The notes under the pieces were generated by a model. It saw only the letters and a list, made by a program, of their open reading frames with translations, did not search any database and was not told where the DNA came from. Below, one piece after another: positions 49,767-51,732 of a stretch of DNA of 64,000 nucleotides; position 1 is the first letter of the stretch; each line of letters starts with the position of its first letter. This DNA is from Oscillospiraceae bacterium. GTDB lineage: Bacteria; Bacillota; Clostridia; Oscillospirales; QAMX01. Both the position numbers and the translations under genes were made by a program. The stretch lies in NCBI GenBank assembly GCA_015067705.1, contig SVLW01000004.1:1-64000 (forward strand). Direction: 5' to 3'.

Positions 49767-49844
49767 AAAAGGCGAGGGGGTGCAAACCCCCTCGCCTTTT
49801 CTTTTTGACAGCAGAAAAGGGCGCTTCCGTATAAGCGCCCCAAC
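49767..49844 (-). ncRNA. Candidate short minus-strand transcript with two hairpins
   Basis: A minus-strand promoter (49851-49879) starts transcription near 49844. The first 26 nt form GGGCGCTT-n6-AAGCGCCC followed by TTTTC. A second hairpin (the beta-helix terminator read on the other strand) ends in TTTT at 49770-49767. The product would be about 40 or 80 nt. No ORF is present. Confidence 0.45.
49771..49806 (+). terminator. Terminator of the beta-helix gene
   Basis: GGCGAGGGGGT-GCAA-ACCCCCTCGCC then TTTTCTTTTT; it also has T4 on the other strand. Confidence 0.93.
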
Positions 49845-49850
49845 ATATTC

Positions 49851-49879
49851 AGTATACCAAATCCCGCCGCCCCAGTCAA
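49851..49879 (-). promoter_or_regulatory. Minus-strand promoter without a gene
   Basis: TTGACT, 17 bp, TATACT with TGG before the -10: a strong match, but only hairpins lie downstream. Confidence 0.7.
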
Positions 49880-49953
49880 GCATTTTTCGGCACATCGCCC
49901 TGTTTCTCCGTTATGCACAAGCGAAACTTATTCACTTTGTACAAAACTCCATC

Positions 49954-49982
49954 TTGTAATTCCCGGATTCTCATGGTACTAT
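49954..49982 (+). promoter_or_regulatory. Promoter of the candidate structured RNA
   Basis: TTGTAA, 17 bp, TACTAT with TGG before the -10. Confidence 0.7.
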
Positions 49983-50140
49983 ATAGACAAGGAAAGGGTG
50001 AGACCAATGAACAAGTAAAACCCTAAGGCTGATGTAAAAATTACAAAGCCGCAGACAAGGTCAGCGAAAACAAGCAGATTTTTTGGAAACAAAAAAGACG
50101 CTCATCGGTGGAACAAAACCGTTTTCGTAGGAAAGAGAAA

Positions 50141-50209
50141 ATGACCGGTCTGAACCCGCAGAAAGAGAGGTTAACCATGACACTGGACACTAAGAAAGCA
50201 GAGAAATAA
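50141..50209 (+). CDS. Possible 22-aa peptide inside the candidate RNA
   Basis: An ATG after AGGAAAGAGAAA, with an internal Met preceded by GAGAGGTTAACC. The product begins MTGLNPQKER and ends DTKKAEK, all hydrophilic. It could be a translated leader or coincidence. No gene follows that it could regulate. Confidence 0.25.
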   Translation: MTGLNPQKERLTMTLDTKKAEK

Positions 50210-50258
50210 CCCTTGACCGATGTGTAAAGAAACAATGGTCAAGGGTATTTCTTTTTTT
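50210..50258 (+). terminator. Terminator of the candidate RNA
   Basis: CCCTTGACC-n18-GGTCAAGGG then TATTTCTTTTTTT. Confidence 0.85.
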
Positions 50259-50321
50259 GTGCCCGTGATGAGAAGTATGGTAGAATCAATCAGAAGCTCG
50301 CCCGGAAGGGGAGCTTTTTTT
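50257..50321 (+). other. Promoter followed at once by a terminator hairpin
   Basis: TTGTGC, 18 bp, TAGAAT (extended -10 TGG), then AAGCTC-n10-GGAGCTT and T7 starting at about +1. No gene lies between. It may be a deletion remnant or a tiny RNA. Element E9 joins its T-tract. Confidence 0.5.
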
Positions 50322-50518
50322 AGTTGATAGTGGAGAGTTGACAGTGGACAGTGAAGGAGTCGGGCTGTGCCCGATAGGAATTAGCAGAGCCAAATTTGGT
50401 TTTGATCAGACTTTCTTGGCTCCCTCATCAGAGGGAGCCGGGGGTACACGGCGAATTTCAATCCTGTCGCCTCCGGCGACACCACAACTGTCCACTGTCA
50501 ACTTTCCACTGTCAATTC
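50322..50518. repeat. Modular repeat element E9
   Basis: 7-nt arms at both ends. Left GGAG + TCGGGC-TGT-GCCCGA, right GTCGCC-TCC-GGCGAC then the complement of GGTG. The middle holds a half B cassette (TTGGCTCCCTCATCAGAGGGAGCC, 50419-50442). Confidence 0.88.
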
Positions 50519-50521
50519 TAT

Positions 50522-50550
50522 TTGCTCTTCCCCGAATTTTATGCTATACT
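50522..50550 (+). promoter_or_regulatory. Promoter of the desulfurase-thiI-pncC-yifB operon
   Basis: TTGCTC, 17 bp, TATACT, right after element E9. Confidence 0.75.
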
Positions 50551-50601: not shown

Positions 50602-51732
50602 ATGCATTATTTTGATCATTCCGCCACCACTGGGGTGTGTCCGGAGGCGGCGCTGAAGGCGGCGCAGATGATGAGCGAGTGCTACGGCAACGCCTCCAGT
50701 CTCCATGCCATGGGGCGGGCCGCAGCCCAGGAGCTTGCCGCGGCGCGTCATGCGGTGGCCGCAGCCATCGGGGCGCAGGACGACGAGATTCTCTTCACCT
50801 CCGGCGGCACCGAGAGCAATAACCAGGCCATCAAGTCCGCCCTGTTCGTGAATCGCCGGGTGGGCAAGCATATCATCACCACCGCCGTGGAGCATCCCGC
50901 GGTCTTGGAGCCCATTCGTGCCTTTGCATCAAACGGCTCTGAGGTGACTTACTTAAAGCCCGATCGGAACGGCGTGGTCTCGCCGGAGGCGCTGGACGCC
51001 GCCCTGCGGGACGATACCGCTCTCGTGTCCATCATGCTGGTGAATAACGAGACCGGCGCGGTGAATCCCATCGCCGCGATAAAGGAAGTGCTGGCCCGGC
51101 GGCAGAGCCGCGCCATCCTCCACACGGACGCGGTGCAGGGCCTCTTCAAGGTGCCCATCAACGTGCATTCCCTGGGCGTCGATCTTCTCACCATCAGCGC
51201 CCATAAGATCCATGCCCCCAAGGGCATCGGCGCCTTATATGTGAAAAAGGGATTCCGGGTGATCCCGGTCCAGCTGGGCGGCGGCCAGGAAAACGGCCTC
51301 CGCAGCGGCACGGAAAATATCCCCGCCATTGCCGGATTCGGCGTGGCCGCAAAGCTGGGCTTTGAAAATCTCTCCCGGCACGCGGCGGAGATCATCGCCC
51401 TGCGCGAACAGTTTGAGCAGGAGCTTGGTGCGAAAGTGCCGGATGCACGTCTCAACTTCCCGGGCGGCGTGCCGCACATTGCCTCCCTCTGTCTCCCCGG
51501 CTGCCGCAGCGAAGTGGTGCTGCGGATCTTAAGCGACGCCGGGGTGTATGTCTCCGCGGGTTCCGCCTGTGCCAAGGGTAAGCGCAGCCATGTGCTCACC
51601 GCCTGCGGCCTGCCCGCCCAGGACATCGATTGCACCGTGCGCATCAGTTTTTCCTACACCAACACCCCCGAGGACGTGACGGCCCTCACCGACGCACTCT
51701 CCGCCGCCTACGCCCGGTTCCATCGGAAATAA
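50602..51732 (+). CDS. Cysteine desulfurase (NifS/IscS family)
   Basis: 376 residues. The N-terminal YFDHSATTGV, PLP lysine in TISAHKIHAPKGIGALY, and the class I persulfide loop SAGSACAKGKRSHVL with its Cys are present. It liberates sulfur from cysteine; with ThiI directly downstream it most likely supplies sulfur for 4-thiouridine or thiamine. It is the first gene of a four-gene operon. AAGAGGGA precedes the ATG. Confidence 0.95.
   Translation: MHYFDHSATTGVCPEAALKAAQMMSECYGNASSLHAMGRAAAQELAAARHAVAAAIGAQDDEILFTSGGTESNNQAIKSALFVNRRVGKHIITTAVEHPAVLEPIRAFASNGSEVTYLKPDRNGVVSPEALDAALRDDTALVSIMLVNNETGAVNPIAAIKEVLARRQSRAILHTDAVQGLFKVPINVHSLGVDLLTISAHKIHAPKGIGALYVKKGFRVIPVQLGGGQENGLRSGTENIPAIAGFGVAAKLGFENLSRHAAEIIALREQFEQELGAKVPDARLNFPGGVPHIASLCLPGCRSEVVLRILSDAGVYVSAGSACAKGKRSHVLTACGLPAQDIDCTVRISFSYTNTPEDVTALTDALSAAYARFHRK

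Follow-up and report, generated by a model that had tools for sequence, protein, structure and literature searches.

A free-standing RNA gene of a Clostridia family absent from Rfam, with a short reading frame that ends inside its terminator

The unit at positions 49989-50258 of a 64,000-nt stretch of Oscillospiraceae DNA (the window) is well supported, on comparative sequence evidence, as a real free-standing RNA gene and as a member of a large Clostridia family that is absent from Rfam. The support comes from the existence of the family and from the anatomy that its members share (Table 1); no transcript has been seen. Near the 3' end of the unit lies a micro-ORF, ORF2, which appears, on the same kind of evidence, to be selected for the act of translation and not for its product.

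Table 1. Features of the element and its flanks in the window
Feature	Position	Strand	Basis
Predicted ultra-short divergent transcript, TGTTGGGG start	49808-49844	-	called terminator; homologues
Divergent terminator: G+C-rich hairpin, then T-rich tail	49841-49818 (hairpin)	-	terminator call
Divergent promoter TTGACT-17-TATACT, TG before -10	49851-49879	-	promoter scan; homologues
Upstream conserved box TTTCTCCGTTATGCACAA	49903-49920	+	column conservation, 104 copies, -52 to -32 from -35
Palindromic box TTTGTACAAA just upstream of -35	49936-49945	+	column conservation, -20 to -4
Main promoter TTGTAA-17-TACTAT	49954-49982	+	sequence; conserved in homologues
5' extended Shine-Dalgarno box (GGAAAGGGTGAGACC)	49991-50005	+	duplex with 16S tail, -14.4 kcal/mol
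ORF1, ATG AAC AAG TAA	50008-50019	+	start and early stop in 77 of 104 copies
P1 hairpin (GGCT/AGCC)	50027-50050	+	MFE fold of the window, and of paralogues C38 and C56
Core domain, with long-range helix P2 closing it (50052-50063 with 50142-50152)	50052-50152	+	MFE
3' extended Shine-Dalgarno box (AGAAAGAGAGGTTAACC region)	50159-50175	+	R1 model family; duplex, -14.2 kcal/mol
ORF2, MTLDTKKAEK-stop; frame conserved, peptide not	50177-50209	+	homologue comparison
Terminator hairpin, ORF2 stop codon in 5' arm	50199-50258	+	fold; compensatory changes in homologues
Second, back-up intrinsic terminator	50294-50321	+	sequence

The initial annotation of this DNA had proposed an orphan structured RNA with its own promoter, terminator and local hairpins, and homologues in many genomes, an excess of stable folds and random neighbours bear this reading out. 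The promoter can be read directly (TTGTAA at 49954-49959 and, 17 nt on, TACTAT at 49977-49982) and 104 homologous copies align on it; a default consensus scan misses it. The terminator, whose fold is displayed by cmscan, escapes the terminator caller because of the length of its loop. The sequence itself shows a start region near 49989, a Shine-Dalgarno-like box, several hairpins and a terminator with its end at 50258; the GAAA-capped 7-bp stem that had been described is located at 50079-50096, and there is, as had been said, no long ORF. Folding of the 273-nt RNA yields -77.7 kcal/mol against -50.2 kcal/mol for dinucleotide shuffles (z = -6.7), in agreement with the hairpins that had been claimed. 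(The terminator hairpin could supply much of this z; the window's middle alone, without that hairpin, gives z = -3.1.) The initial annotation had not remarked on the promoter and terminator that point the other way (49879-49808), on the boxes upstream of the main promoter or on two further copies in the genome.

These two copies are found by BLASTN of 49940-50262 against 59 relatives (71% identity along almost the whole length; 77% along the 3' third), together with copies in five other genomes. The covariance model used for genome searches, R1, comprises the 3' 99 nt of the element. It matches three copies in the window's genome, which accordingly has at least three such units. At family level 9 of 21 genomes have matches, at order level 42 of the 245 sampled and at class level 21 of 391; the weaker matches include hairpin echoes on the reverse strand. 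Pattern scanning of GTDB genomes gives at least 119 stretches, almost all from Oscillospiraceae/Clostridia MAGs; among the matches listed, the sole isolate contig is that of Pseudoflavonifractor sp. MSJ-30 (L170) and the other named carriers are MAGs. Anatomy was analyzed on 104 distinct copies with promoter, extracted from the loci found among the matches listed; related copies are not independent counts. Some loci hold clusters of two or three copies within a few kb (L036, L075, L124, L138, L151). There are also minimal copies (L151 at 945, 5845 and 6890; L084, L127, L133) with ~35 nt between the boxes and no start after the 5' box, the three of L151 lying within 6 kb of one contig.

Rfam 15 at gathering score recognizes no family in the whole window and, at a permissive E-value on the element, offers only sub-threshold hairpin look-alikes; in 20 relatives it finds only tRNAs and one Gut-1, and nothing on the element. 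The families that had been put forward as candidates (raiA, 6S and other orphan RNA models) accordingly receive no credible support from Rfam, in the window or on the element in the 20 relatives. A targeted search with the raiA model (RF03072) is negative in all 58 genomes, with the control genomes silent too. No earlier description of the element RNA was found in the open-access literature, coverage of which is incomplete. Locus L047 carries a Gut-1 RNA (RF01706) at 2145-2218, ~600 nt from an element copy.

Several copies per genome, patchy presence, clusters of two or three copies and random neighbours would also suit a promoter-carrying dispersed repeat or non-autonomous mobile element without host function, a reading that we regard as unlikely. 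The same-genome copies are merely 71-77% identical; copying is therefore not recent, and promoter geometry, the ORF2 frame with its stop, and base pairs are kept despite the divergence. The element has zero matches in viral contigs, plasmids and phages, and phage or plasmid origin has been rejected on that ground. The empty-site comparison, with one congener only, encounters other genes upstream and a different synteny, and no precise empty site is seen.

Two extended Shine-Dalgarno boxes characterize the family, AGAAAGGGTGATACC or ACAAAGAGGTGATACC on the 5' side and AGAAAGAGAGGTTAACC on the 3' side, each of them similar to the complement of the entire 16S tail. (The sequence of this tail, GGATCACCTCCTTTCT, comes from a genome of the same family, the window's own assembly having yielded no 16S.) The median duplex energies of the 5' and 3' boxes are -16.0 and -14.8 kcal/mol, compared with -9.3 kcal/mol for ordinary nearby genes. 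The 5' box is followed by a start codon and, after 2-3 codons, a stop in 77 of 104 copies; the start codon is absent in 14 of the 104. Three copies of one genome (L002, L010 and L011, genome G006) have an extra hairpin, GCAGAAAGAAAGGTTTCTGC or a close variant, directly before the 3' box; it amounts to a second Shine-Dalgarno-like sequence locked in a stem.

The initial annotation had pointed to micro-ORFs of 3 and 22 codons with ribosome sites, and had left room for a translated leader or dual-function RNA, an option that fits the comparative evidence for a conserved translated micro-ORF. The 3-codon frame is ORF1. The 22-codon frame is present at 50141-50209 but opens ahead of the conserved start: by comparison with homologues, ORF2 begins at an internal ATG at 50177, directly 3' of the box AGAAAGAGAGGTTAACC, which makes it 10 codons long. 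Across the family ORF2 has 8-10 codons, with the stop placed within the terminator hairpin's 5' arm. At 136 sites located by nucleotide signature, without requiring an ORF, an in-frame stop occurs at codon 7 or 8 after the start in 134 cases, that is, in 134 of 135 evaluable sites (one of the two remaining sites reads TGT and the other is cut by a contig end). These stops are TGA (65), TAA (60) and TAG (9); the G+C-rich part of the hairpin lies directly 3' of the stop, and the pairing partner changes with it (TAACCC/GGGTTA, TGACCC/GGGTCA, TAGCCC/GGGCTA). The apical loop GTAAAGAA/GGTGAAAGA of the hairpin, present at only about 30 of 136 sites, was dropped as a defining feature. Beyond the hairpin, a second terminator follows within ~110 nt in 50 of 103 copies, as against 1 of 103 after shuffling (single mononucleotide shuffles are the controls here, and likewise for the divergent promoter, the divergent terminator and the P1 and closing-helix counts given below); it is not found in half of the copies.

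ORF2 might be a peptide gene, specifying a signal or effector of consensus MLDxKxxxK, with the remainder of the RNA as its untranslated region. Its consensus MLD(I/N/T)K, strong Shine-Dalgarno sequence and conserved start and stop are all consistent with that, and yet we would give this interpretation little weight. Variation in codons 4 (I/N/T) and 6 (S/N/I/T) falls mainly on the second base. The frequency of MLDxK is inflated since the pattern scan required it; the scan pattern and the ORF2 signature both require parts of these codons, so that near-invariance there is partly built in. Copies of the window's family with unrelated peptides exist (MIEPKNSGK, MIEPKSFGK, MEPTFAAE), which come from the model-derived set, less biased than the pattern scan, and retain start, frame and stop. 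The peptide reading would, moreover, leave a structured 5' region of as much as 400 nt unexplained. It is because start, frame and stop are kept while the peptide can change completely that the act of translation appears to be what is selected.

Upstream of the RNA the architecture is rigid. The spacer of the main promoter is 17 nt in 99 of 104 copies, with TG preceding the -10 element, and two family-wide blocks lie at about -52 to -32 (TTTCT.C.TTTTGCA.A) and -20 to -4 (TTTGTACAAAATTCC), counted from the -35 element. In 96 of 102 copies (1 of 102 when shuffled) the divergent promoter lies 98-125 nt before the 5' box, and the start of its transcript is TGTTGG-like in 81 of the 96. In 60 of 94 copies, as against 4 of 94 shuffled, this transcript soon meets an intrinsic terminator (median ~25 nt), which is as frequent when the upstream gene is divergent (34 of 54) as when it is convergent (23 of 37). 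Since this terminator is close whatever the orientation of the upstream gene, we predict a divergent RNA that is ultra-short and no gene leader. Few parts of the element are as rigid as its promoter pair, and this, with the predicted ultra-short divergent RNA, could be taken to mean that a DNA-level device is at work, in which bidirectional promoter and terminators insulate genes or set supercoiling and the RNAs are by-products. The chances of this seem slim to us; it leaves the covarying structure, the Shine-Dalgarno boxes and the ORF2 frame without explanation.

Between the two boxes the middle ranges in length from ~30 to 400 nt across copies. Folding z-scores of 92 middles average -2.1, and 88 of the 92 lie below zero. 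The window and its two paralogues share a layout but not its sequence, with one hairpin following the 5' box and a long-range helix closing just before the 3' box. The core domain of the window contains the 7-bp GAAA hairpin. A P2-like closing helix of different sequence is present in both paralogues and, family-wide, in 78 of 91 middles compared with 44 of 91 shuffled; P1 is weak by the same measure (49 of 91 compared with 36 of 91) and, barely above shuffles, was rejected as a family-wide feature. Conservation of pairs in relatives, one of the two checks on which the initial annotation had staked its reading, favors structure. In a related subfamily of 8 sequences, changes on both sides affect 17 cells of a 41-pair structure (5.3 after shuffling); the covariation score is 0.228 where shuffling gives 0.151 (0 of 500 shuffles), and falls to at most 0.065 when the structure is slid. 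The test covers that subfamily and not the window's, so that the helices of the window rest on energy and on the three paralogues; a single family-wide structure is not proven, the middles differing too much between copies. Many middles (e.g. L147, L085, L143, L004) have as a core a TTCCGACATATAAG...TCTCGCTTAGAGA hairpin, which in most cases lies 75-95 nt upstream of the 3' box, and CTCGCTT occurs in 15 of 92 where 0.3 would be expected.

Downstream genes are on the same strand in 50 cases and on the opposite strand in 49, and this randomness supports the earlier reading as an orphan RNA; upstream genes are divergent in 56 cases and same-strand in 42. The neighbourhood survey of the loci disclosed no dominant gene family and no shared class. 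Because neighbour orientation is random, the element is not a leader, and downstream-gene control has been rejected. As a cis-acting leader, with ORF2 as leader peptide and the hairpin as attenuator, the element would have to its credit the attenuator-like placing of the stop codon inside the terminator stem and, in the window, a cysteine-desulfurase-like gene that follows at 50602 in the same direction, ~340 nt downstream, but with the orientations so divided, no gene family dominant and a second terminator often following, this notion is largely refuted for the family as a whole and hardly credible. Among neighbours, only MATE-like transporters recur, within a few kb at 11 loci (e.g. L021, L080, L085, L124, L156), a raw count without an enrichment test. 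Between the RNA gene and the cysteine-desulfurase-like gene (50320-50530), the window has a palindromic repeat, TTGATAGTGGAGAGTTGACAGTGGACAGTG, and its inverted copy, 114 nt apart; this repeat is MITE-like, with 75 matches in the genome.

The explanation that we prefer, a stand-alone RNA gene of an undescribed Clostridia family with a ribosome-gated 3' end and a probably trans-acting middle, stands in our judgment about evenly between right and wrong; gating and function are inferred, and there are no expression data. By similarity only, the 5' box might act like a Stab-SD element, a ribosome bound there shielding the RNA from 5'-to-3' exonuclease and so rendering it stable. At the other end, a ribosome finishing ORF2 would cover the foot of the terminator hairpin. 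In E. coli, the translating ribosome almost completely represses a Rho-independent terminator that lies a few bp downstream of a gene (PMC4824070), and since ORF2 ends inside the terminator stem, comparable repression is to be expected. Termination at the first hairpin would then report whether ORF2 had been translated during synthesis of the RNA: untranslated RNA would end there, and translated RNA would continue to the second terminator where one is present. The ORF2 peptide would be a by-product. The structured middle may act in trans, different copies having different partners; for this, the lack of a cis target and the variation between copies are the only basis. Translation-gating of the 3' end is an inference, and gating without a downstream gene has no obvious purpose, which counts against our preferred explanation. 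A more ambitious version can be entertained, doubtfully: the bidirectional promoter, under regulation, would yield an ultra-short (~30-nt) RNA in one direction and in the other a structured RNA whose 3' end is set by translation of a micro-ORF retained solely for that act, and each copy would report ribosome availability via two isoforms, constituting a new class of RNA gene.

The element adds a sizeable unlisted RNA family to gut and rumen bacteria of a common group whose RNA regulation is little known, and ORF2 looks like a natural example of selection on a frame for its translation rather than for the product. Its parts have counterparts in known systems. Leader-peptide attenuators likewise have a short ORF ending in or beside an intrinsic terminator, and overlap of ORF with terminator stem is met at 134 of 135 evaluable sites; a same-strand downstream gene of one functional class is not, for the element controls no gene and its neighbours are random. 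Stab-SD mRNA 5' ends (cry genes, hbs) carry an extended Shine-Dalgarno sequence near the 5' end that can bind an initiating ribosome, which blocks RNase J1 (PMC3997798). The element meets the corresponding criterion, an extended Shine-Dalgarno sequence complementary to the 16S tail near the 5' end; the cry and hbs boxes protect a long mRNA, whereas the element RNA has no long ORF and its protection is only inferred. Dual-function small RNAs such as B. subtilis SR1/SR1P resemble it in combining a small RNA with a short translated ORF. SR1P is reported to be a functional small protein (PMC8501984); the ORF2 product, in contrast, has 8-10 residues and no conserved sequence, and the criterion of a peptide with its own conserved sequence is not met, some copies varying freely with the frame kept. 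The raiA motif/ModT RNA (RF03072) is, like the element, a stand-alone structured Clostridia RNA, of roughly similar length, and is known from over 2,500 species with a defined pseudoknotted fold (PMC11706538). The element differs in being without an Rfam match, multicopy and variable in its middle. We know of no comparable ORF or divergent promoter in raiA/ModT. With no Rfam match, no controlled downstream gene and no conserved peptide, the element is therefore classed as a new RNA family, the nearest kind to which is the stand-alone structured Clostridia RNA such as raiA/ModT.
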